Positions 15,004 to 31,465 of a stretch of 64,000 nt of DNA are shown in pieces. A model generated the notes under the pieces. The model made no database searches and had not been told where the DNA came from. It saw only the letters and a list, made by a program, of their open reading frames with translations. The DNA is from Bacteroidales bacterium (GTDB lineage: Bacteria; Bacteroidota; Bacteroidia; Bacteroidales; PXBB01): contig JAQVVM010000012.1 of NCBI GenBank assembly GCA_028698995.1, positions 1 to 64,000 on the forward strand. Reading direction: 5' to 3'. Numbering within the stretch: the first letter of the stretch is position 1; each line of letters starts with the position of its first letter. A program made the translations under genes and the position numbers.

Positions 15004-15798
15004 TTAAAGGCCTAAAGCGCTTGCAAGGATCTCGGCTACATCGTAATTGGCCACTTCTGTTTCTTTGTTTTTGTATTTAATACCATCGGTCATCATTGTC
15101 ATGCAGAAAGGACATGATGTGACAATCATTTGAGCTTTTGTTTCAAGGGCTTCTTCAGTTCTTTCAATGAAAACTTCCTTATCTCCTGTTTCGGCTTCTT
15201 TAAACATCTGCGCACCCCCTGCACCACAGCAAAGTGCAAAACTTTTATGTCGTTTCATTTCAATGCTTTTACCACCTGTTTTAGCAAGAATTTCTCTTGC
15301 ACTTTCATACTCATTGTTGGCTCTGCCTAGATAGCAGGGGTCGTGGTAGGTAAAAGTTTTGCCTTCAAATGCCATCTGTGAAGGGTTTATTTTCCCCTGA
15401 TCACACATTTCTCTAAGAAACTGGGTATGATGTACTACTTCATATTTCCCTCCGAGATCGGGGTATTCATTTTTAAAAACATTGTAGCAGTGGGGGCAGA
15501 TGGTAATTATTTTCTTTATCTGATAGGCATTCAGAACTTCAATGTTCATCATGGCCATCATCTGAAAAAGCATCTCATTGCCAGCTCTGCGAGCAGGATC
15601 GCCTGTACATCTTTCCTCGTTGCCAAGAACTGCAAAATCAATATTTAAGTGTAAGAGAATTTTGGCAAATGCCCTTGTAACCTTTTTATACCTGTCGTCG
15701 TAAGCTCCTGCACAACCAACCCAAAAGAGATATTCGGGAGTTTTTCCTTGAGAAAAAACCTCTGCCATGACAGGTATTTTAAATTCGTTATTGCTCAT
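15004..15798 (-). CDS. CCG-domain Fe-S protein (HdrB-like)
   Basis: About 264 residues with two cysteine-rich CCG-type segments. The second is canonical (HDPCYLGR, CCGAGGAQMF, CPFCMTMM); the first is more degenerate (GCAGAYDD, CTGDPARR, CPHCYNVF). Such domains bind the special 4Fe-4S clusters of heterodisulfide-reductase B subunits and related menaquinone- or ETF-linked oxidoreductases. The ATG at 15798 is chosen over a TTG two codons upstream. The gene starts 13 bases after the cytochrome b/ferredoxin partner, with which it surely forms a complex. Confidence 0.85.
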   Translation of the reverse strand: MSNNEFKIPVMAEVFSQGKTPEYLFWVGCAGAYDDRYKKVTRAFAKILLHLNIDFAVLGNEERCTGDPARRAGNEMLFQMMAMMNIEVLNAYQIKKIITICPHCYNVFKNEYPDLGGKYEVVHHTQFLREMCDQGKINPSQMAFEGKTFTYHDPCYLGRANNEYESAREILAKTGGKSIEMKRHKSFALCCGAGGAQMFKEAETGDKEVFIERTEEALETKAQMIVTSCPFCMTMMTDGIKYKNKETEVANYDVAEILASALGL

Positions 15799-15811
15799 TT
15801 CCAATGGTTTA

Positions 15812-17128
15812 TTAATTTGTTTGACTTTTATTTAAATCCTCAGTCCACAATAATCTGTCTTCTGCTGAATATTGCCATGGTGCACCATTATTTTCAATAT
15901 TTGAAAACATATTATTAATCAAAGTGGGGGCTTTGCTTTCTTCCATCACCAGGTAACGGCGTAGATCAATAATGAGGGTAGGATGATTGATATTTACGGG
16001 ACACTCTTTAGCACAGGCGTTACAAGTAGTACATGCCCAGATTTCTTCTTCGCTGATATAATCTCTGATAAGAGATTTATTATCTGTAAAATCTTTTCCG
16101 TTTTTAATGATGAGGGTGCCTAATTCTTTCATGCGGCTTCTGTAGTCAATAAAAATTTTTCGGGGTGATAGTTTTTTCCCTGTTAAGTTTGCAGGGCATA
16201 CCGCAGTACATCTACCGCATTGGGTACAGGTAAGTGCATCTAAATAATTTTTCCAGCTGGCATCTGTAACATCTTTAACACCAAAACGTGAGGCCGGTTC
16301 AATAGAGTTTTCGATAACGGCATTGGGATTGAGCATGATTTTAACTTCTCGTAAAACACTTTCCATGGTGTCTAATTTCCCAAGGGGTTCCAACCGTGAT
16401 AGAAAGACATTTGGAAGTGACATAAAAACATGAAAATGCTTGGAATAGGGGAGATAATTAGCAAAGAAAAAGATAAGCAAAATATGCAACCACCAGTTCA
16501 ACTCATGCAAAAAATATGCGGTATCATAAGAAATACCATCAAATAAGGGAGCCAGATACTTACTGATAGGGAAAACACCACTGTAATTGTTGGGATTTAG
16601 GACTATATAAAAAATATTGGTAAAAAACAAGGAAATCATCAATGTAAGGATGAGTAATAAGGAAATGTTGGCATCCCTGTGCGATTTTGCTTTCATTTCC
16701 TCTCCTTCAAATCGGTTAACTTTTATGATAATGCGTCTGATAAGAAATGCGATGATGCAAAAGAATATGATGTATGCAAAAAAATCTCCCAGTCCTATTA
16801 TAATATTATATACCGGTCCCAAAAAAGCAAAAAACCTTTCAGAACCAAGTATGCCATCAAAAACAACTTCAATACTGCCAAACAAAATGACCATAAAACC
16901 CCAGAAAACAAGTGCGTGCATAAATCCAACAACAGGTTTGCGCAAAATGGTTGTTTGACCAAAAGCTACTTTGAAAAGCACGAGAAAACGCTTGCCAAAA
17001 TCCTTTATAGGATATGGTTTCGTGAGCTTAAAAAAACGGTAAATTTTAAAGGTGGTGAAGAAAAAAGTAGAAAAAGTAATGATTAGAAAACCTATAAACA
17101 CGATTTGTTTGATGGTAAATAATGTCAT
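15812..17128 (-). CDS. Membrane cytochrome b/4Fe-4S protein (NarI-HdrC-like)
   Basis: 438 residues. The N-terminal half has about five transmembrane segments with His residues suited to b-type heme (FMHALVFWGF, FLHELNWWLHILLIFF), like nitrate-reductase gamma. The C-terminal half has two 4Fe-4S motifs (CTQCGRCTAVCP near 299 and CTTCNACAKECP near 350). It passes electrons between the membrane quinone pool and the CCG subunit encoded downstream. Domain content resembles FeS-type ETF:(mena)quinone oxidoreductases, here split into two genes; the actual partner is not shown by the sequence. Confidence 0.85.
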   Translation of the reverse strand: MTLFTIKQIVFIGFLIITFSTFFFTTFKIYRFFKLTKPYPIKDFGKRFLVLFKVAFGQTTILRKPVVGFMHALVFWGFMVILFGSIEVVFDGILGSERFFAFLGPVYNIIIGLGDFFAYIIFFCIIAFLIRRIIIKVNRFEGEEMKAKSHRDANISLLLILTLMISLFFTNIFYIVLNPNNYSGVFPISKYLAPLFDGISYDTAYFLHELNWWLHILLIFFFANYLPYSKHFHVFMSLPNVFLSRLEPLGKLDTMESVLREVKIMLNPNAVIENSIEPASRFGVKDVTDASWKNYLDALTCTQCGRCTAVCPANLTGKKLSPRKIFIDYRSRMKELGTLIIKNGKDFTDNKSLIRDYISEEEIWACTTCNACAKECPVNINHPTLIIDLRRYLVMEESKAPTLINNMFSNIENNGAPWQYSAEDRLLWTEDLNKSQTN

Positions 17129-20098: not shown

Positions 20099-21751
20099 AT
20101 GAAGAGGCTTATTCTGATTTGTTTAATGTCATTTGTTTTTTACTTTGTTTATGCCGGTAAAGGTAGAATCGTTTTTGTTGAAACGGATGTGGATTTGCAC
20201 ACTGATGGATCAGCTGTTGTAATGTACACTATTCAGTATGAAGTTATTCAGCCTGATTTACATGCTTTTATTTTCAGCGGTAACGACAGGCTGATAATTG
20301 AGTCATTTTCTGATCTTTGCCATGCTGTGGATGATAAGGGCAATGTCTATAAGCTTGATATTAAGAAGATTGACAGCGATCGTTACGATATTGCATTAGC
20401 AGATAATCAGGGAATTTCCTCAGGGAAGGTCACTTTTGTGTTTTACTTTGAAACTAATTTTGCAACTGCTCAATACGTTAACAAAACCACTAGTGATGAT
20501 GGAAAGGAGCTGGTGTATTTCAATTGGGCACCTGTTCAATGGGATGAAGCTGAGACTCAGGAGCATTACACATTGCGTGTACTGTTTCCGGATACAACTG
20601 ATTACGGCCTGAATATAAGGGAGCGTATATACCATGACAGTATCATAATGACAGAACCTTGGGTTAACGAAAATTATAAGATAGATTTTATTAAAGGACC
20701 GGCAAATCGCTTACAAGCTATATTTCATAAAGAAAATCCGGGTAACATGTACCACATGAGGGTGCAGTTTTATATGCCTGCTTCGTGGTTTGATGTAAGT
20801 CTGTTTTTTATAAAAACCTCTGTTGATGAAGAATATGACTATGCATCGGAAACGGATTATTATTTTTACGATACTGAGCTTGTTGCAGCTGATAAAAAGA
20901 ACCTTATTATTGGTTTTGTTATTCTTGCTTTTGGATTTTTAGTTATTTTTTTATTAAAGCAGAAATCTTTATTAAAAGCAAAAGAAACATTAGACGAAAT
21001 CAGATGGGATAAGTTAGATTGGACACCACCACAGCTTGAACTTTCAACTTTTCAGAAGGAGGGAAAAATCTGTACAGATTTGATGCCCTTAGAAGTTGCA
21101 TTTTATCTTGCCATTCCAATCAAACGCATCATCAGTGCTATGGTAAAAACCTTTGTTAATGAGGGGTATATAAAAATAATCAACAATGAGCCTTTAAAAG
21201 TCGAAAAAATCTCCGATCCCGATTTGACACAATTGAATGTGTACGAAAAAATGTTATTCGGTGCTCTTACTGATGATGGCGAGCTATCGCAAGATGAATT
21301 GGAAAGTCTTATGAATACTGCTGTTCAGAATATCAGAACAAAAGCCTGGGACGCTGATGTGGAAGCCACAAAACAATACTATAAGAATGCCATGAACGAG
21401 TTGGCAAAAAGTAAGAATATTGATGCAGATATTACTGAAGAAGAAGACGAGCAACAGAAAGACCTCAATACAGAAAGAATGTGGTATTACTGGTATCGTT
21501 ACCGTACACTCTATTTCCATAATGATATTATTGATGAGCAGCCTTTTAATCTGGCAACCTCCATCCCTTTAAACACCGACCATATAGTCATCTCACATAT
21601 TCAAACAGATTTAGCATTAAACCTCAATGTCTGTCATAATGCCTGCCATAATGCATGTCATTCAGCCTGTCATTCTGCTTGCCATTCAGCTTGTCATTCA
21701 GCCTGCCACTCTGCTTGTCATTCAGCATGTGTAAGTGGAGGCTCCAGATAA
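20099..21751 (+). CDS. DUF2207-like membrane protein with C-terminal Cys-His-Ser/Asn-Ala repeat tail
   Basis: 550 residues. Signal peptide, then a beta-rich extracytoplasmic domain (about 20-260), one transmembrane segment (268-288) followed by Lys-rich sequence, so the remainder should be cytoplasmic. That part has a winged-helix-like segment (LMPLEVAFYLAIPIKRII, FVNEGYIKI), as in DUF2207 membrane proteins. The last 39 residues are unique: eight tetrapeptides of Cys-His-(Asn or Ser)-Ala (512-543; two with Asn, then six with Ser), a ninth Cys (544) and the end VSGGSR. Codons inside the repeats vary synonymously. It is followed 20 bases later by a radical SAM/SPASM gene, making the tail the probable substrate. 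Confidence 0.85.
   Translation: MKRLILICLMSFVFYFVYAGKGRIVFVETDVDLHTDGSAVVMYTIQYEVIQPDLHAFIFSGNDRLIIESFSDLCHAVDDKGNVYKLDIKKIDSDRYDIALADNQGISSGKVTFVFYFETNFATAQYVNKTTSDDGKELVYFNWAPVQWDEAETQEHYTLRVLFPDTTDYGLNIRERIYHDSIIMTEPWVNENYKIDFIKGPANRLQAIFHKENPGNMYHMRVQFYMPASWFDVSLFFIKTSVDEEYDYASETDYYFYDTELVAADKKNLIIGFVILAFGFLVIFLLKQKSLLKAKETLDEIRWDKLDWTPPQLELSTFQKEGKICTDLMPLEVAFYLAIPIKRIISAMVKTFVNEGYIKIINNEPLKVEKISDPDLTQLNVYEKMLFGALTDDGELSQDELESLMNTAVQNIRTKAWDADVEATKQYYKNAMNELAKSKNIDADITEEEDEQQKDLNTERMWYYWYRYRTLYFHNDIIDEQPFNLATSIPLNTDHIVISHIQTDLALNLNVCHNACHNACHSACHSACHSACHSACHSACHSACVSGGSR
21632..21730 (+). repeat. 12-bp coding repeat (Cys-His-Ser/Asn-Ala)x8 plus Cys
   Basis: Eight consecutive 12-base units encode the Cys/His tail. 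Third positions differ between units (Cys TGT/TGC, His CAT/CAC, Ser TCA/TCT, Ala GCC/GCT/GCA) while the peptide changes only Asn to Ser. This pattern points to selection on the peptide and not to very recent slippage. Confidence 0.95.
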
Positions 21752-21771
21752 ACAATTTTTAATTAAAAATT

Positions 21772-23094
21772 ATGAAAACTGACTTTTCTTGGGTTGATGA
21801 GTATTTTCAGAACATAAAGCCTTACATATTTGTGAGAACTGAGGATAATATGCTTATTAAGAGACCCAATGAAGTACAGAAACTTAATAAAACAGGCACT
21901 TTAATTCTTAAGGAACTGCTAAATGGGGTAAAGATTCAAAGCATTTTAAAGAAGCTGAATAAGGATCCTGAAAAAATACTTCAGGTTCATTATTTTTTAA
22001 ATGCCATACGTGAATCAGTTGATGGACACACAAGTATTTATTCGGAAAATCCTGCGGTTCATAAAAAACCTTTTGATTTGCAGTTTTCCCTGTTCCCAAT
22101 TTTGTCTGAATTGGCTGTTACATATCGTTGTAATCTCAAATGTGGCTTTTGTTATGCAGGTTGTAATCTTACCCATAACCCTATCAACAGTGATAAAGAG
22201 TTAACAACAATGGAACTTAAACTGATTATTCATAAAATATGGAATCAGGCCAAAGTACCTTCTATAAGTTTTACCGGTGGAGAACCATTACTAAGGGGTG
22301 ATTTGCCTGAGTTGATAAAGTTTGCTAAAGAATGTGATATGAGGGTTAATCTTATTACCAATGGCACACTGATAACACCTGAGAAAGTACGATCTTTGGT
22401 TGATGCAGGACTTGATTCTGCCCAAATCAGTCTGGAAGGTGTGGATGCTGAAACCCATGATTCTTTGGTAGGTAAGAAAGGTGCTTTTCAACTTACACTC
22501 AATGCTGTGAAACTTCTGAAAACAACAGGTATTCATGTGCATACCAATACCACATTAAACAGACATAATATTGAACAGGCATTCTATTTCCCCGCTTTTA
22601 TTAAGCATGAATTTGGCCTCAAAAAGTTTAGCATGAACATGATGATTCCTTCAGGAAGTGCTGATAAAAACAATGACCTTACTTTAAAGTACTCAGAAAT
22701 AGGACATTATATTGATGGGGTAATTGCTCAAAGTAAGAATTTTGGGGTGGAATTTATGTGGTATTCTCCTTTGCCATTGTGTATTTATAACACGATAACA
22801 CATGGCTTAGGCAATAAAGGATGCAGTGCTTGTGATGGTCTTATTTCAGTGGCACCAAACGGTGATATCCTGCCATGTGCTTCCTTTGATAAGCCGGTTG
22901 GTAACCTCCTTGAAAAGAATTTTGATGATATATGGCAGGATACTGATGCTTGTTTTTTCAGGAAAAAGGATTTTGCACCAGAATATTGTCGTCAATGTGA
23001 ACATTTTAAACTGTGCAATGGTGCATGTCCACTTTACTGGCGCAGCATTGGATTCGATGAACTTAACTGTATTATTAACCAAAATATTTTCTGA
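21772..23094 (+). CDS. Radical SAM/SPASM enzyme with PqqD-like N-terminal domain
   Basis: 440 residues. Residues about 15-90 (RPNEVQKLNKTGTLILKEL, KILQVHYFLNAI) look like a PqqD/RiPP-recognition-element fold. The radical SAM core has CxxxCxxC at Cys120, Cys124, Cys127 plus a further Cys131, and the SAM-binding FTGGEPLLRGDL. The C-terminal SPASM region carries Cys351, Cys354, Cys369 and the CRQCEHFKLCNGACP cluster. Such enzymes form thioether, C-C or other radical links in ribosomal peptides or activate enzymes. Its place between a repeat-tail protein and a membrane protein 1 base downstream makes it the likely maturase of the cassette. Reaction unknown. Confidence 0.93.
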   Translation: MKTDFSWVDEYFQNIKPYIFVRTEDNMLIKRPNEVQKLNKTGTLILKELLNGVKIQSILKKLNKDPEKILQVHYFLNAIRESVDGHTSIYSENPAVHKKPFDLQFSLFPILSELAVTYRCNLKCGFCYAGCNLTHNPINSDKELTTMELKLIIHKIWNQAKVPSISFTGGEPLLRGDLPELIKFAKECDMRVNLITNGTLITPEKVRSLVDAGLDSAQISLEGVDAETHDSLVGKKGAFQLTLNAVKLLKTTGIHVHTNTTLNRHNIEQAFYFPAFIKHEFGLKKFSMNMMIPSGSADKNNDLTLKYSEIGHYIDGVIAQSKNFGVEFMWYSPLPLCIYNTITHGLGNKGCSACDGLISVAPNGDILPCASFDKPVGNLLEKNFDDIWQDTDACFFRKKDFAPEYCRQCEHFKLCNGACPLYWRSIGFDELNCIINQNIF

Positions 23095-23095
23095 T

Positions 23096-24049
23096 ATGGC
23101 ATTATTTTTTAAAAAATCTGAACAAGATACTATTGTATTTTTAATATTTCCTGCAATCAAATACTTTTGGCGATTAATGATAAGCTTTCTGCTTATCGGT
23201 GTCGGTTTCTTTCTGCAGTTTTATTCATTTATGCTCTTTCCAGGTGTTTTTCTTGTTTTTGCCGGCAATTTGTTGTTGCTCATTAAAGGTTATGATAACC
23301 GGCTTAAAATGGGGAGCTACACCCATGATTCAAAATGGGAATTTATCAGCAATGAACAGGTAAACAAGCTTCTGAATTTACACAAAAGAATAATATCATG
23401 GGACAGAAGTGCTTTTGATATCACCAATTCTCTGGGTGTATTAATTTTTATTGTCATGTTAATTGTAGTTATAATCTTAATCGCCAACAGTTCAAATTAC
23501 AATAAGTCGTACATAATTCTTTCTGTCAATATTGTGTTTTTATTTTTTCCACATTGGGTTACAGGTGTTAAGAAAATATTGACAATGCCTGTTCTTATTC
23601 TTAAAATAAATCTGCTTTTAAAAATGCTTTCAGATGCAGGTGATAAGATTAAGGATTTTAAAATTCAGTATCAGATACTTTTGAAAGGAGATAAAAAGAA
23701 ATCAAATGTGTTGCCTCAGGATATTAAAATCAAAGTCTCAAGCGGGAATGATGAAGAAGGTTTTTTAGGTCTGTATGGTCAGATAACTACAAATGATATC
23801 AGTGGAACCATGTATCCCTATTTTTATGTCGTTCTTGTAGCCAAGCAGAATTTTCAGTTAAAAGAAAGAACCAAAAACTATAATCCTCCCTCCGGTCTCA
23901 TTAAAGAATACACCACACAAAGCGAAGTGGATGTGTTGATTCTTAGACAGTTTACTACCCGTACATCAGGTTACCATACCAAAGCAAAAGTTGTAAATCA
24001 AATTTTTATTGAAGGATTAGCCCTTTTAAAAAATGTGAATGCTGTTTGA
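23096..24049 (+). CDS. Unrecognised membrane protein of the radical SAM cassette
   Basis: About 317 residues starting MALFFKKSEQDT at an ATG one base after the radical SAM stop, so translation is probably coupled. Two hydrophobic segments near the N-terminus (about 25-65) and two near 115-165 surround a short soluble loop. The C-terminal ~150 residues are soluble, with a beta-rich section (GFLGLYGQI, YPYFYVVLVAKQ). I do not recognise the family. Its strict placement suggests a function with the modified tail, such as a membrane partner, chaperone or reader. Confidence 0.8.
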   Translation: MALFFKKSEQDTIVFLIFPAIKYFWRLMISFLLIGVGFFLQFYSFMLFPGVFLVFAGNLLLLIKGYDNRLKMGSYTHDSKWEFISNEQVNKLLNLHKRIISWDRSAFDITNSLGVLIFIVMLIVVIILIANSSNYNKSYIILSVNIVFLFFPHWVTGVKKILTMPVLILKINLLLKMLSDAGDKIKDFKIQYQILLKGDKKKSNVLPQDIKIKVSSGNDEEGFLGLYGQITTNDISGTMYPYFYVVLVAKQNFQLKERTKNYNPPSGLIKEYTTQSEVDVLILRQFTTRTSGYHTKAKVVNQIFIEGLALLKNVNAV

Positions 24050-24809: not shown

Positions 24810-27800
24810 ATGAAAAAAAACTTACTCACGGGTATTGTAAAGACATTAGCTGTATTTTTTGCGGTTACTGTTTTTGCCGTTACAATGAAAGCCCAAACAA
24901 CCATTACATTGGGAACCGGAACCGGTCAGAGTGGTGCCTATGAAGCGTCTCCTGCCAATGTTTATTGGGAAAGCAGACATTTACAGTTCGTATATACCAA
25001 AGCAGAAATAAACACTGCCGGTATTACAGGAACACATTTATTGAAAGCCATTGCTTTCAATGTATCAGAAGCTGCTGGTAATGCACATACCAATTACAAA
25101 ATCAGAATTGGACACACTACTTCAACCAATGCTGCATCTCACATCAGCACAACCCTTACTGAAGTTTATACGGCAGCAACTGTAAACTTTAACACAACCG
25201 GTTGGAAAACACTTACATTTACAACTCCTTTTTCATGGAATGGTGTTGACAATATTTTAGTTGATATTTGTTGGGGAGTTAACACTGCTTATTCCTCTAC
25301 CGGACAGGTTTATGTTTATACACCTGATGTTACTAACGGTATCAGAACAAAAAATTCAATTTCAACTGTAACCTGTAGTGAAACCACAGATACACCTGCC
25401 AACAAAAAGCCTCAGGCAAAACTTACGTTTGATCCTCCTACACCAGCTAATGACAACTGTTCTGGTGCCACTACATTAACTGTTTATGGAAATACTTGTG
25501 GTGCAACCGTTATAGGTGATATTGCAGGTGCGACCAGTTCTAGCGTTACCGGATGTCCAGGAACTCCTAATAATGATGTTTGGTATAAATTTGTTGCTCT
25601 TTCTACAGCACATAACATCACTGTTGTTGGCTCAACAGGATTTGATGCTGTTATTGATTTACGTTCAGGTGCTTGTAATGGTACAAGTATTGGATGTGCT
25701 GATGCTACATTAAGTAGTGGTACAGAAGTTATCAACGCAACAGGTCTAACTGTTGGAAGTACTTATTATGTGAGAGTTTACGATTATTACAGCACTACAC
25801 CTTCAAATACCACATTTACAATTTGTGTTACAACTCCTACCCCTGCAAACAACAATTGCTCAAGTGCTACAACATTAACTGTTAATTCAGGTAGTACATG
25901 TGCAAATGCAACAACAGGAAATGTAGCAGGTGCCACTTCTTCAGGTACAACACTCACTTGTGGTGGATTATCAGGCACAGCTGATGTTTGGTATAAATTT
26001 ACTGCCACTCAAACAAGTCATATAATAACAGTTGTGGGTTCTGCAAGTTTTGATGCAGTAGTTGACCTACGTTCAGGTTCGTGTTCCGGAACTAACATTG
26101 CTTGTGCTGATGCTACATTTGGTGGAGGTACAGAAGTAATTAATGCCACAGGATTAACAGTTGGTTCTACTTATTATGTAAGAGTTTATAACTGGAACTC
26201 AACCATGCCCGCTACTACTTCTTTTACCATTTGCGTTACAACACCTGCCAGTGGTTGTACTACACCTGGTGCTCCTACCAATCTTTCTGTAGTTCCGACA
26301 CAAACAGGTGCTTCTTTCACTTGGGCTGCTCCTAACAACCCAGCCGGAAGTCCAACAATTGTATATTACTGGATGATTTCTACTTCAGCCACTCCCAATT
26401 GGAGCTCTTACATTGCACGTTGTGGTGATGCAGGTGGTTTTGCTGCAAATACTGCAGGAACAGGATCTTGTGTTGCTCCTGCCGGTTTGCCAGCTACTTT
26501 AACACCTAATACACAGTATTATTTACACATGTATGCACGTACTTCTTGTGACTGGACTCAATCACCGTGGGCTACCCAGGCTTTCACTACTTTAAGTACC
26601 GGTCCAGCTAATGATGAGTGTGCAGGAGCTATAAACCTCACTGTTCATGGTGGTACATGTACCAATGCAACAAACGGAGACGTGGCCAATGCAACACAAT
26701 CAAAACCGGCTTTCTGTGGTGGTACGGCAAATAATGACGTATGGTATAAATTTACAGCAACATCTGTAGAACATATTATTACTGTAGTTGGTTCTTCAAG
26801 CTTTGATGCTGTTGTTGAACTTATGTCCGGTGCTTGTCCTGGAACTAACGTTGCTTGTGCTGATGCTACCTATGGTGGTGGAACAGAAGTAATTAATGCC
26901 ACAGGTTTAACAATCGGAAATGTTTATTATGTCAGGGTTTATGATTATTATGCATCAAATCCTACTACTACCACTTTTACCATTTGTGTTACCACACCTC
27001 AGTCAGGAGTTGCTCCGGTTGCTAATTTTACTGCTGATGTGACTACAATAACTGTTGGAGGTACGGTCAACTTCACCGATTTATCAAGTAATTCTCCTAC
27101 CACATGGGCTTGGCAGTTTGCTGTTGGTGCACCTGCAGGAACTTGCACACCTGCAACTTCATCACTTCAAAATAAACCTGTAGTTTATAATACTGCCGGT
27201 ACTTATACTGTCAAATTAACTGCTACAAACCAATTTGGCAGTGATATTGAAGAGAAAATTGCTTATATTATTGTTAACCCTGCTACAACAACTTTGACTG
27301 CTACTGCAACTGCACAACCTACAACCGTATGTCAAGGTACACAGACACAACTCAATGCCGTTCCAAATGGTGGATCAGGTACTTATACTTATGCTTGGAC
27401 ATCTAATCCTGCAGGGTTTACTTCAACTTCTCAGAATCCAAGCGTGACACCGAATGCAACAACTGTTTACACAGTTACTGTTAATGATGGATCTCAAACA
27501 GCTTCAACTTCTGTTACTGTAACTGTTAATCCGTTGCCAAATACTCCAGGAACAATAAATGGTACAGCTACTGTTTGTAAAGGAAGTACTAATGTTTCTT
27601 ATTTTGTTTCTACCGTTGGTAATGCCACCGGTTATCTGTGGACTATTCCTACAGGGGCTTCTATTGTATCAGGACAAAATACAAACAGCATTGTTGTTGA
27701 TTATGCAGCTAATGCCGTTTCTGGTAATATTACCGTAGCCGGAACAAATGCTTGTGGCTCAGGTACAGCTTCTACACTAGCTATTACTGTTCATAATGCG

Positions 27801-29090
27801 CCGATTGCTAATGCCGGAACTTCTCAAACTATTTCTAGCGGTGCTACAGCTAATCTTAGTGGTTCAGCTACAGGTGGTACTGGTAGTTACACTTATTCTT
27901 GGACTCCTGCTAACTTGTTGCAAAATGCCAATGTTCAAAATCCTACTACACTTGCTTTGACAAGCTCACAGGTATTCACTCTTACTGTACTTGATAATAC
28001 TACAGGATGTTCGGGTGTTGCTAATGTTCAGATTATTGTATCCGGTGGTTCATTATCGCTGTCTGCAACAGCTAATCCAACAACTGTTTGTCAGGGAGCC
28101 CAAGTTAGTTTACAAGCATTACCTTCAGGAGGATCAGGAGCATATACATACAATTGGTCTTCTAATCCATTAGGTTTTTCATCATCATTGCAGAATCCTA
28201 CAGTTTCTCCATCTGTCTCAACACAATACATTGTTGTTGTATCCAGTGGCGCTTCTTCAGCTACTGCTTCTGTTGCTGTTACTGTTAATCCTTTACCCGA
28301 TGCACCCGGTAATATCACCGGAACACCTACAGTATGTCAAGGTGCAGCAGGTATTTCTTATTCTATTCCTCATGTTAATAATGCAACCGGTTATACATGG
28401 ACATTACCTATGGGAGCTGCAATTTCTGCCGGAGCCAATACCAATTCAATTTTGGTGAACTTCGGAAGCACTTCAATTTCCGGTAATATCAGTGTTGTAG
28501 CTACAAATGCTTGTGGCAGCAGTACTGCTTCGCCAAACTATAATGTGGCTGTAAATGCATTGCCAACATCTGCAGGTAATATCTCAGGACCATCTGTAGT
28601 TAGTCAAGGACAAACAGGCGTTTCTTATTTTGTTCCAATTATTAATAATGCTACTAATTATATCTGGTCTTTACCTCAGGGTATTAATATTGTATCAGGT
28701 CAAAATACAAATTCAATTGTTGTAAATGTGACTGCATCAGCCATTACAGGTGTAATAACTGTGTATGGCAGTAACAATTGTGGTGATGGCTCAAGCTCAC
28801 CTGCATTTCCAGTTACAATTCTTACTGATATAAATGAAGTGGATGCTTTAAACATCAATGTATATCCTAATCCATCAGACGGTAAGTTTTATATTGAAAT
28901 GAATACCCGCACTGGTGAGAAATTCAATGTTAAAATATTTAATACAGTTGGAGCCATTGTGTTTGATGAACAACTGAATGATGAATTATTACATCCTTTC
29001 GATTTAGGTCATCTTTCAAATGGTCTTTATTATGTTCAAATTTCTAGTAATTCTATAAACAAAATGGAAAAACTGATAATTCAGAAATAA
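24810..29090 (+). CDS. Large secreted multidomain protein with T9SS sorting domain
   Basis: 1426 residues. Signal peptide (AVTVFAVTMKAQ), an N-terminal beta-rich domain (about 30-210), then three near-duplicate domains of about 130 residues (about 212-343, 346-478 and 600-730). Each starts like PANDNCSGATTL and contains NDVWYKF, FDAV(V/I)(D/E)L and GSTYYVRVYDY, resembling bacterial pre-peptidase-like beta domains. A fibronectin-like segment sits between copies two and three. After these come a PKD-like domain (about 735-830) and several Ig-like domains, ending in a T9SS type A sorting domain (VYPNPSDGKFYIEM). Probably surface-attached or released adhesin-like protein; no catalytic motif is seen. 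Confidence 0.87.
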   Translation: MKKNLLTGIVKTLAVFFAVTVFAVTMKAQTTITLGTGTGQSGAYEASPANVYWESRHLQFVYTKAEINTAGITGTHLLKAIAFNVSEAAGNAHTNYKIRIGHTTSTNAASHISTTLTEVYTAATVNFNTTGWKTLTFTTPFSWNGVDNILVDICWGVNTAYSSTGQVYVYTPDVTNGIRTKNSISTVTCSETTDTPANKKPQAKLTFDPPTPANDNCSGATTLTVYGNTCGATVIGDIAGATSSSVTGCPGTPNNDVWYKFVALSTAHNITVVGSTGFDAVIDLRSGACNGTSIGCADATLSSGTEVINATGLTVGSTYYVRVYDYYSTTPSNTTFTICVTTPTPANNNCSSATTLTVNSGSTCANATTGNVAGATSSGTTLTCGGLSGTADVWYKFTATQTSHIITVVGSASFDAVVDLRSGSCSGTNIACADATFGGGTEVINATGLTVGSTYYVRVYNWNSTMPATTSFTICVTTPASGCTTPGAPTNLSVVPTQTGASFTWAAPNNPAGSPTIVYYWMISTSATPNWSSYIARCGDAGGFAANTAGTGSCVAPAGLPATLTPNTQYYLHMYARTSCDWTQSPWATQAFTTLSTGPANDECAGAINLTVHGGTCTNATNGDVANATQSKPAFCGGTANNDVWYKFTATSVEHIITVVGSSSFDAVVELMSGACPGTNVACADATYGGGTEVINATGLTIGNVYYVRVYDYYASNPTTTTFTICVTTPQSGVAPVANFTADVTTITVGGTVNFTDLSSNSPTTWAWQFAVGAPAGTCTPATSSLQNKPVVYNTAGTYTVKLTATNQFGSDIEEKIAYIIVNPATTTLTATATAQPTTVCQGTQTQLNAVPNGGSGTYTYAWTSNPAGFTSTSQNPSVTPNATTVYTVTVNDGSQTASTSVTVTVNPLPNTPGTINGTATVCKGSTNVSYFVSTVGNATGYLWTIPTGASIVSGQNTNSIVVDYAANAVSGNITVAGTNACGSGTASTLAITVHNAPIANAGTSQTISSGATANLSGSATGGTGSYTYSWTPANLLQNANVQNPTTLALTSSQVFTLTVLDNTTGCSGVANVQIIVSGGSLSLSATANPTTVCQGAQVSLQALPSGGSGAYTYNWSSNPLGFSSSLQNPTVSPSVSTQYIVVVSSGASSATASVAVTVNPLPDAPGNITGTPTVCQGAAGISYSIPHVNNATGYTWTLPMGAAISAGANTNSILVNFGSTSISGNISVVATNACGSSTASPNYNVAVNALPTSAGNISGPSVVSQGQTGVSYFVPIINNATNYIWSLPQGINIVSGQNTNSIVVNVTASAITGVITVYGSNNCGDGSSSPAFPVTILTDINEVDALNINVYPNPSDGKFYIEMNTRTGEKFNVKIFNTVGAIVFDEQLNDELLHPFDLGHLSNGLYYVQISSNSINKMEKLIIQK

Positions 29091-29275: not shown

Positions 29276-31465
29276 ATGAATAAGTTATTACCATTGAGCA
29301 AAATGCTTCTTGTCCTTTTCTTTTGCAGTACATTTCTTAATGCACAAGTTGTTGATTTGAATGGCAACAGTTTGATTATCAGTGCTGACACTATGCTTGG
29401 AGGGAAATTTATTAATGTTGCAACTTTCAGCATATTACAGGGAGTAACTGTAACTGTTGACAGCACGAAATTTTTTTTGGAGATTGAGGCTGACAAAATA
29501 TTTTTAAGCGGTACTATAAATGGAAGTGGGAGGGGAGCTATTGGTGGCAGTGGTGGTAATGGTGGATCTTATTCCAATGGCAGTGGTAATCCGGGTAGAG
29601 GTGGGCTTGGTGGCTTTAGCGGTTCCGGCCTTGGCGGTGGGCAACCAGGTTTTGCAGGTGGCGATGGAGGCTTTATCACTCAGATTTGTGGAGGGTTTTT
29701 ATGTTCGGGCAATAGGGATGGGCTTAATGGCGGTGGTGGCGGAGCAGGAGGTGGTAGTGGAGGCTCTTACGGTGGTTCCGGAGGTTCAGGCGGTTGGGGT
29801 GCTTATGGAACAGGTTTTACCGGTGCATCAGGTGGTGTATATGGAGGTGGAGGACTTGTGAGTGCTGTATATGGAAATAATACTGATTTTGATATAAATT
29901 TTGGTAGCGGTGGTGCTGGAGCCGGTGGTGGCGGAGGTGGCTGGTCTGCAGGAGGCTTTGGTGGAAAAGGTGGAAATGGTGGTGCTATGGTCAGTTTATA
30001 TGCTTCAGATACCATTATTATATATGCCAGTGGAAAAATACTTTGTAATGCTACTAATGGAGGAGTAGGAGGTACAGGTGCTGGAGAATCAACAGGAAAT
30101 ACTTATACCTGTTCATCTTCAGCTTATAGTTCTTGTACGCTATGTTCTGAAAGCGTATTTGATGGTCCTGGTGGTGCTGCCGGAGGAGCCGGTGGTGGTT
30201 CAGGAGGTGGTATTAGGATTCATTCGCCAGGCACCATGAAACTTTTTTCAGGCTCACAATTAAGTGTCAACGGTGGTAATGGTGGCAGTAATGGTTACCC
30301 CAACTCATCTGTCGGTACTTGCTTTGATAACGCTGCTAATGGCGGCGGCGGCGGCGGAGGTAGAATTAAAGTGATTACAAATTGCCATCCTGATAATCTG
30401 TATGATATGACTTTTACTACAAATGGTGGTGTCGGTTTTCAAAGTGGAAATTCCGGAACATTTGATCTTTTACCACTTATGCCGGAAAACGCAGGTATCA
30501 TTTATGGAGATACAGTGGTTTGTGAAGGTTCTGTAATTAGTTACAGTATTGATGATGTGGATCTCGCTTCATCCTATACCTGGAATATTCCTTCAGGGGC
30601 TGCTATTTTATCAGGCGCAGGCACGGATAGTATTACAGTTCAATTTAATACAGTGAATTCCGGATTAATAAGTGTTACACCCGTAAATTTTTGTGGAAAT
30701 GGTGATTCATCTATCCTCAATGTACAGGTTAATCCCTTACCTGTTTTATCTCTTATTACCAGCGTTGAGTTGCATCTGTGTTATGGTGACAGCGTTACTT
30801 TGTTGGCCAATTCTGATACATCATTAACTTACCAGTGGCAGATTGATTCTTTATGTAATAACACATGGGCGGATATACCTGGAGCTACAACACCTTCTCA
30901 TTATATTTCAAATGCTACCCAGACCTATTGTTACAAATTGGCTGTTAGCAATAGTTGTGGAACTGTAGTTTCGGCTGTTATTCAAGCTGTTGTAAACCCT
31001 GCCCCTTCTACACCTTCTGTTTACTTTAATAATTCAACACTTTATTCCAGTGCTTCAACAGGGAATCAGTGGTATAACTCTCAAGGGATTATTGCAGGCC
31101 AACAAGGACAAACATATCTAAATCCTCCTGATGAAAATTATTATGTAATTGTTACAGATGCATGGGGTTGTAGTTCCCTTCCTTCAAACATTGTAACAGT
31201 AAACACTGTAGGAATTGACGATATTTCTGATTATGGCTTAAATTTCTATCCCAATCCGAATAATGGTTCTTTTAATATCTCTGTACCTGAGGGTTTATAT
31301 ACACTTATAATATCAGATTTGTTAGGTCGTGTGATTTATGAAAAGGAAATTAAAAGTGATGGTTCGCTTTATGAAATTACTATTCCTGATATAAATAAGG
31401 GTGTTTACCTAATACAAATGAATAGCCCTGTATCACGTTTTACATCAAAACTTGTAGTCAGTTAA
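29276..31465 (+). CDS. Gly-rich secreted protein with Ig-like and T9SS domains
   Basis: 729 residues: signal peptide ending FLNAQ; a short beta domain (20-80); about 140 residues extremely rich in Gly, Ser and Asn (about 80-240, many GG and GGSGG motifs); a second Gly-rich block (about 295-365) with a Cys-containing insert (TCSSSAYSSCTLC); two Ig-like domains (about 405-600); and a T9SS type A sorting domain (NFYPNPNNGSFNISV). Gly-rich stretches of this sort can form polyglycine-II-like bundles, but the role is unknown. It follows the terminator of the preceding T9SS gene and has a possible -7 element TATTTTTG at 29247-29254. Confidence 0.85.
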   Translation: MNKLLPLSKMLLVLFFCSTFLNAQVVDLNGNSLIISADTMLGGKFINVATFSILQGVTVTVDSTKFFLEIEADKIFLSGTINGSGRGAIGGSGGNGGSYSNGSGNPGRGGLGGFSGSGLGGGQPGFAGGDGGFITQICGGFLCSGNRDGLNGGGGGAGGGSGGSYGGSGGSGGWGAYGTGFTGASGGVYGGGGLVSAVYGNNTDFDINFGSGGAGAGGGGGGWSAGGFGGKGGNGGAMVSLYASDTIIIYASGKILCNATNGGVGGTGAGESTGNTYTCSSSAYSSCTLCSESVFDGPGGAAGGAGGGSGGGIRIHSPGTMKLFSGSQLSVNGGNGGSNGYPNSSVGTCFDNAANGGGGGGGRIKVITNCHPDNLYDMTFTTNGGVGFQSGNSGTFDLLPLMPENAGIIYGDTVVCEGSVISYSIDDVDLASSYTWNIPSGAAILSGAGTDSITVQFNTVNSGLISVTPVNFCGNGDSSILNVQVNPLPVLSLITSVELHLCYGDSVTLLANSDTSLTYQWQIDSLCNNTWADIPGATTPSHYISNATQTYCYKLAVSNSCGTVVSAVIQAVVNPAPSTPSVYFNNSTLYSSASTGNQWYNSQGIIAGQQGQTYLNPPDENYYVIVTDAWGCSSLPSNIVTVNTVGIDDISDYGLNFYPNPNNGSFNISVPEGLYTLIISDLLGRVIYEKEIKSDGSLYEITIPDINKGVYLIQMNSPVSRFTSKLVVS

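Follow-up and report, generated by a model that had tools for sequence, protein, structure and literature searches.

Radical S-adenosylmethionine (SAM) maturases are best known as makers of small peptides and cofactors; the usual targets of those with a SPASM domain are Cys-rich cores, and a domain resembling the RiPP (ribosomally synthesized and post-translationally modified peptide) recognition element (RRE) is a peptide-binding module. In another enzyme class, integral membrane proteins of the TIGR04222 type with low-complexity, Cys-containing C-terminal tails were proposed as partners of multinuclear non-heme iron-dependent oxidative enzymes (MNIOs); these tails are composed of Ser/Gly with scattered Cys, were placed in the periplasm and occur mainly in Actinomycetota (PMC12452194, Antoine et al. 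2025). Here, a three-gene cassette was analyzed in a window of 64,000 nucleotides (the whole stretch of DNA under analysis) from contig JAQVVM010000012.1 of a Bacteroidales bacterium. The cassette, termed T-R-M, encodes a membrane protein whose C-terminal tail is built of Cys-His-Xaa-Ala (CHxA) repeats (T), a radical SAM/SPASM enzyme with a PqqD-like RRE (R) and a second membrane protein (M). T-R-M was read as a self-contained protein-modification cassette, in which R would modify the tail and the tail would stay on T, and a probability of about 0.6 was given to this reading as a whole.

Compared to the MNIO/TIGR04222 systems, T-R-M showed the same general plan, including a Cys-tailed membrane protein, an adjoining gene for a peptide-modifying metalloenzyme, a protein-sized substrate and a related TIGR04222 domain. 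This connection, which followed from the TIGR04222-like cytoplasmic part of T, was absent from the initial annotation of the window. The differences lay in the enzyme (radical SAM/SPASM with its own RRE, whereas the MNIO has a separate partner), in the tail (a strict CHxA repeat, predicted to be cytoplasmic), in the range (many phyla) and in the third gene, M. The two placements of the tail clash, periplasmic in PMC12452194 and predicted cytoplasmic for 20894-21748 of the window, and one of them may need revisiting. As to an adjacent MNIO, no further gene family was conserved next to the cassette, DUF692 not being searched for by name. Like T, the TIGR04117 targets of radical SAM enzymes (Cys-Xaa-Xaa-Xaa repeats) have a radical SAM partner and a C-terminus in which Cys recurs at every fourth residue. 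However, TIGR04117 describes a protein of 98 positions, while the repeat of T ends a membrane protein of 550 residues and its His and Ala are fixed; assignment of T to TIGR04117 was rejected because the copies listed scored 11.7-14.5 bits (the window copy 14.5) where the cut-off is 50, and the match (best E 0.00013 over the family) was driven by Cys spacing. The sactipeptide and ranthipeptide maturases SkfB and CteB and the RiPP maturase SuiB share with R the radical SAM/SPASM fold with an RRE and are near it in sequence among solved structures, but they act on short excised peptides, while R has eight Cys in its auxiliary region and a membrane protein as its presumed substrate.

No Pfam or NCBIfam model named R, T or M. 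In the open-licence literature, outside which a subscription paper could exist, no paper on a T-R-M system was found; the string CHSACHSA occurred in one unrelated paper only, papers on CXXX repeats, membrane-anchored precursors and ranthipeptides described no such system, and the passages of PMC9062424 and PMC10352776 retrieved by keyword contained nothing equivalent. The idea of a maturase-treated Cys tail on a membrane protein is therefore already published for the MNIO class, and the radical SAM version with a fixed CHxA tail and M is unnamed in the libraries and papers searched.

The three open reading frames (ORFs) lay on the plus strand, as did all their features given below, at 20099-21751 (T, 550 aa), 21772-23094 (R, 440 aa) and 23096-24049 (M, 317 aa), with gaps of 20 bases between T and R and 1 base between R and M, in agreement with the initial annotation. 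For the homologue search, the R alignment alone was run against 84,980 species genomes, which yielded at least 436 relatives, and the best 80 loci were kept. According to the record titles, these loci spanned about 18 phylum-level names: Bacteroidota, Calditrichota, Cloacimonadota, Gemmatimonadota, Desulfobacterota lineages, Planctomycetota, Gammaproteobacteria, Acidobacteria, Aminicenantes, Verrucomicrobia/Lentisphaerae, Bacteriovoracaceae, Armatimonadota, Spirochaetota, Hydrogenedentes, Clostridia, CSSED10-310, Eisenbacteria and Fermentibacteria. Many of the R-bearing genomes were metagenome bins, and individual placements may err, but hardly all of them; cultured isolates among the carriers included Acetivibrio mesophilus and Desulfobulbus alkaliphilus DSM 24258.

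At 73 of these 80 loci, R was immediately preceded by an in-frame tail ORF; with L057, whose contig begins just ahead of a shorter tail, the count rose to 74. A T with the same tail was encoded on another contig in four genomes (L032, L079, L090 and L103), which brought the tail to 78 of 80 genomes. M adjoined R on its 3' side in 79 of 80 loci, and the exception (L031) stopped at the contig edge. With start codons picked by rule, the median gaps in the order T-R-M were -1 base (T-R) and -4 bases (R-M), and translational coupling is therefore likely. The distance matrices of T (tail excluded), R and M were correlated with a Mantel r of 0.82-0.84, while the null maximum was 0.19. That T-R-M is a real conserved three-gene system was regarded as practically certain. 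No further gene family recurred in more than 9 of the 80 loci, which indicated that no dedicated protease or exporter accompanies the cassette. At one locus (L025:341-1834), a reverse-transcriptase-like ORF with a YADD motif, of the group II intron type by eye, was located immediately 5' of R, at the position expected for T.

The linkage was also specific to the R family. In the order of Acetivibrio, R of this family was present in 12 of 58 genomes (E 1e-161 or better, save one copy split by a stop) and the tail was found in 12/12, whereas at the six loci of the next radical SAM matches (E 1e-41 to 1e-48) it was found in 0/6. Homologous radical SAM genes standing apart from repeat-tail proteins, which the initial annotation had named as evidence that would speak against it, were thus not the pattern observed. 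In two Clostridia genomes (L183, L189, L182), R appeared broken or incomplete and the tail was intact; one copy was split by TAA and another covered profile positions 3-377 only. Within the family of the window genome, R was found at 59% identity in one of two other genomes. In its order, T was present in 6 of 295 genomes, the window genome included, and all six had the tail and an adjacent R. Evenly spread sampling of the class with T and of the phylum with R added no genome, which indicated that the system is rare and patchy. Searches of plasmids with R and of phages with M gave no match.

The tail of the window copy, (CHNA)2(CHSA)6-CVSGGSR at 21632-21748, is the proposed modification substrate; the product of T reads NVCHNACHNACHSACHSACHSACHSACHSACHSACVSGGSR at its end, so that the eight CHxA units and the following Cys described initially were indeed present. 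The 74 tails contained 7-10 units each, apart from the shorter one of L057. The third repeat position was occupied by Ser (483), Asp (72), Asn (11), Ala (9) or Gly (2) and the fourth by Ala (573) or Gly (4), and the terminus CVSGG-(S/A/G)-(H/R) was found in almost every homologue. The mean consensus was 0.95 for the tail and 0.51 for both the ectodomain and the cytoplasmic domain, with 37-60% across T outside the tail, which made the tail the best-conserved part of T. Pairwise codon differences in the tail comprised 44,549 synonymous and 1,704 non-synonymous ones (about 26 to one). This excess indicated that selection maintains the amino-acid sequence of the tail and that its uniformity does not stem from recent DNA duplication. 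Each of the 44 R-bearing genomes checked (44/44) had a single tail locus, and the reversed pattern was matched in none; likewise, when the window's order (295 genomes) was searched for a pattern with three Cys, exactly the six genomes with T were hit (0 of 289 others) and the reversed pattern gave no match. A single tail locus per genome and zero reversed-pattern matches argued against a chance pattern.

Variants of the tail were also observed. One or two added CxxxC units preceded the CHSA array in L060, L064, L069, L071, L087, L094, L109 and L110, for example SDACHSACYVHTACHDACHSA. In the T homologue at L027:8060-9625, which ends in CVSGGGGSSGGGGASGGW, the CHSA tail continued into a Gly/Ser-rich end with a final Trp; such ends are typical of other DUF2207/TPM-type proteins, and L027 may connect the two types of tail in evolution. 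Matches on three phage-like contigs (L105-L107) were rejected because SACHSACH/CHSA was read only in a non-coding frame, while the coding frame encoded QPVT repeats; genes for such QPVT-repeat proteins are a trap for tail pattern searches.

The topology of T was predicted from hydropathy, charge and an AlphaFold2 model (pLDDT 83), in which the ectodomain was confident, the cytoplasmic part formed a helical domain and the tail had low confidence. A signal peptide (about residues 1-19, 20099-20155) was predicted from hydropathy and n-region charge, followed by a DUF2207-like ectodomain (20156-20884), a single transmembrane helix with positive residues after it (20894-20968; hydropathy and AlphaFold2) and a TIGR04222-like cytoplasmic domain (about residues 320-440, 21056-21418). 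The homologues showed the same layout in hydropathy, with a single main membrane-spanning helix around residue 270 and, in most, positive charge beyond it. DUF2207 (PF09972) was matched by 23 of 55 family members (best E 1.2e-7; L071 at 25.5 bits, above the gathering score of 24.4), and the window copy stayed under the Pfam cut-off at 18 bits (E 0.0034). In structural comparison, the predicted ectodomain resembled the N-terminal beta domains of ribophorin I and M1 aminopeptidases (Z 15.4, rmsd 2.7 over 179 residues). TIGR04222 was matched in the cytoplasmic region by 15 of 55 members at E <= 0.1 (best E 8.3e-8), and the window copy itself gave no match. Two members listed scored 28.8 and 25.3 bits, below the NCBIfam cut-off of 43; judging from such scores, the cytoplasmic part of T appears to be a distant relative of TIGR04222, not a member by cut-off in the copies with listed scores. 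Because one membrane helix joins the DUF2207-like ectodomain to the TIGR04222-like domain, the tail is placed in the cytoplasm, and both the DUF2207 likeness and the cytoplasmic side of the tail had been proposed correctly at first sight, as far as predictions go. Matches of single T members to PsbJ, ribosomal proteins and the like were taken as chance matches.

R was confirmed as a radical SAM/SPASM enzyme by Pfam (Radical_SAM E 7.4e-27, SPASM 1.4e-9). Its radical SAM core (22117-22557) contained the CxxxCxxC motif C120/C124/C127, invariant in 57 of 57 sequences, and its SPASM auxiliary-cluster region (22780-23028) eight Cys (C337, C351, C354, C369, C406, C409, C415 and C419) conserved in 55-57 of 57. 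The PqqD-like N-terminus noted initially (about residues 7-90, 21790-22041) was upheld when alignments were compared (hhalign probability 91.7, E 7.8e-7); the Pfam PqqD model gave no score on the single R sequence. Among solved structures, the best matches were SkfB and PqqE, and SuiB, anSME and CteB were matched as well. The top NCBIfam scores were those of the heme enzymes AhbD and NirJ2 (151.8 and 150.8 bits, E about 1e-44). Assignment of R as a heme enzyme (AhbD/NirJ) was rejected at under a third of the 500-bit equivalog cut-off, and with scores so far below the cut-offs no named family fits R.

For M, no significant match was obtained in Pfam, NCBIfam or PDB sequences. The AlphaFold2 model (pLDDT 92) showed two helical transmembrane hairpins and a soluble alpha/beta domain at the C-terminus (23588-24046) with near-invariant YPYFY and RQxTTxTSGYHT motifs. 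Foldseek with this model returned nothing at E <= 0.001. The top rows of a fold comparison included Spa15, YbjN, AmyR and SigE, of type III secretion chaperone/YbjN folds, at Z 5-7.5; in the model, this hints at a chaperone-like role, and binding of the tail by M would be a guess.

Based on these results, the following mechanism was proposed. T would be exported via its signal peptide and halted at its one transmembrane helix, leaving the DUF2207-like domain outside and the TIGR04222-like domain with the (CHxA)n-CVSGG tail in the cytoplasm. The RRE of R would bind T, and R would apply SAM radical chemistry, with its SPASM auxiliary Fe-S clusters, to successive repeats, most likely at Cys to form a thioether or other Cys-derived bond. 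M would serve as a scaffold in the membrane, and its soluble domain may keep hold of the flexible tail, which would stay uncut. The modified, membrane-attached form of the tail would be what works in the cell, perhaps as a site for metal binding or redox chemistry that is coupled to the ectodomain. Modification of the tail by R, with T kept in the membrane, was considered probable, as supported by co-inheritance specific to this family, by the RRE and by the absence of linked release genes. Taken one by one, action of R on the tail is very probable, persistence of the tail on T is probable, and Cys is a somewhat likely target; the metal or redox role is tentative. The initial claim that the tail is not freed as a small peptide gained indirect support from the absence of a conserved protease or exporter beside the cassette, although unlinked enzymes could still release it.

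Several points weigh against this proposal. In two genomes (L025 and L037, metagenome bins with short contigs), R was present and no tail was found genome-wide. The best-scoring named families for R were those of heme enzymes. The fold match of M is weak, its Z values lying within the range of common arrangements. The metal or redox role was read solely from the composition of the tail, and co-inheritance, the RRE and the missing linked release genes do not by themselves reveal a chemical product.

Release of the tail is the substance of one rival explanation, in which the tail is a precursor core modified by R, a housekeeping protease encoded elsewhere frees a small secreted peptide, and T is an oversized leader. 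An RRE-bearing radical SAM/SPASM enzyme beside a repetitive core at the C-terminus is what a RiPP system normally looks like, and unusually large precursors were reported in MNIO systems (PMC12452194); but no protease or exporter was conserved beside the cassette, the T scaffold was conserved and co-inherited, and the tail was nearly invariant across phyla, unlike most bioactive RiPP cores, which made this explanation unlikely. A tail held almost letter for letter across about 18 phylum-level names argued for a basic cellular role and not a weapon, and for a protein modified in place. Alternatively, the tail may be an unmodified metal- or cluster-binding array, with R acting on a cofactor or lipid or only aiding the loading of the site. 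The near-invariant Cys and His and the heme-pathway scores of R fit such an array, yet the RRE-like domain is of a peptide-binding type, R with its 152 bits falls well short of the 500 bits set for the heme families, and no cofactor pathway genes were conserved nearby; it was considered improbable to a similar degree.

Even if R acts on the repeats, its target could be His, Ser or Ala, with epimerisation or a C-C or C-N bond in place of Cys cross-links and with Cys as a metal ligand. Cys, His and Ala were all nearly invariant, and for that reason the target residue could not be read from variation; the habitual choice of Cys-rich cores by enzymes of this type speaks against it, and it was rated the least probable of the three. 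Returning to modification of a retained tail, a broader interpretation is conceivable but doubtful: T-R-M could represent a widespread and hitherto undescribed class of membrane proteins whose activity depends on a genetically encoded prosthetic tail of repeating Cys/His structure. This tail would be built by a radical SAM enzyme, remain fixed for good on the cytoplasmic side and carry metal or electrons at multiple sites, in connection with an extracytoplasmic domain.

T-R-M pairs a radical SAM enzyme with a large membrane protein across about 18 phylum-level names. Together with the MNIO/TIGR04222 systems, it suggested that enzymes from two unrelated families were co-opted to act on Cys-rich tails of membrane scaffolds that are themselves related. 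T-R-M may bring to light a novel type of cofactor or metal site anchored on a protein, and it is directly testable in the cultured A. mesophilus and D. alkaliphilus DSM 24258.

Other genes of the window were also noted. After the cassette, the genes of two large surface proteins lay at 24810-29090 and 29276-31465; their products have PKD_6 domains and carry Por secretion C-terminal sorting tails, as in type IX secretion cargo. On the minus strand at 15004-17128, close to the cassette of the window and not kept beside it in other loci, a CCG-domain protein and a membrane Fe-S protein were found, which resembled a heterodisulfide-reductase-like electron transfer pair.

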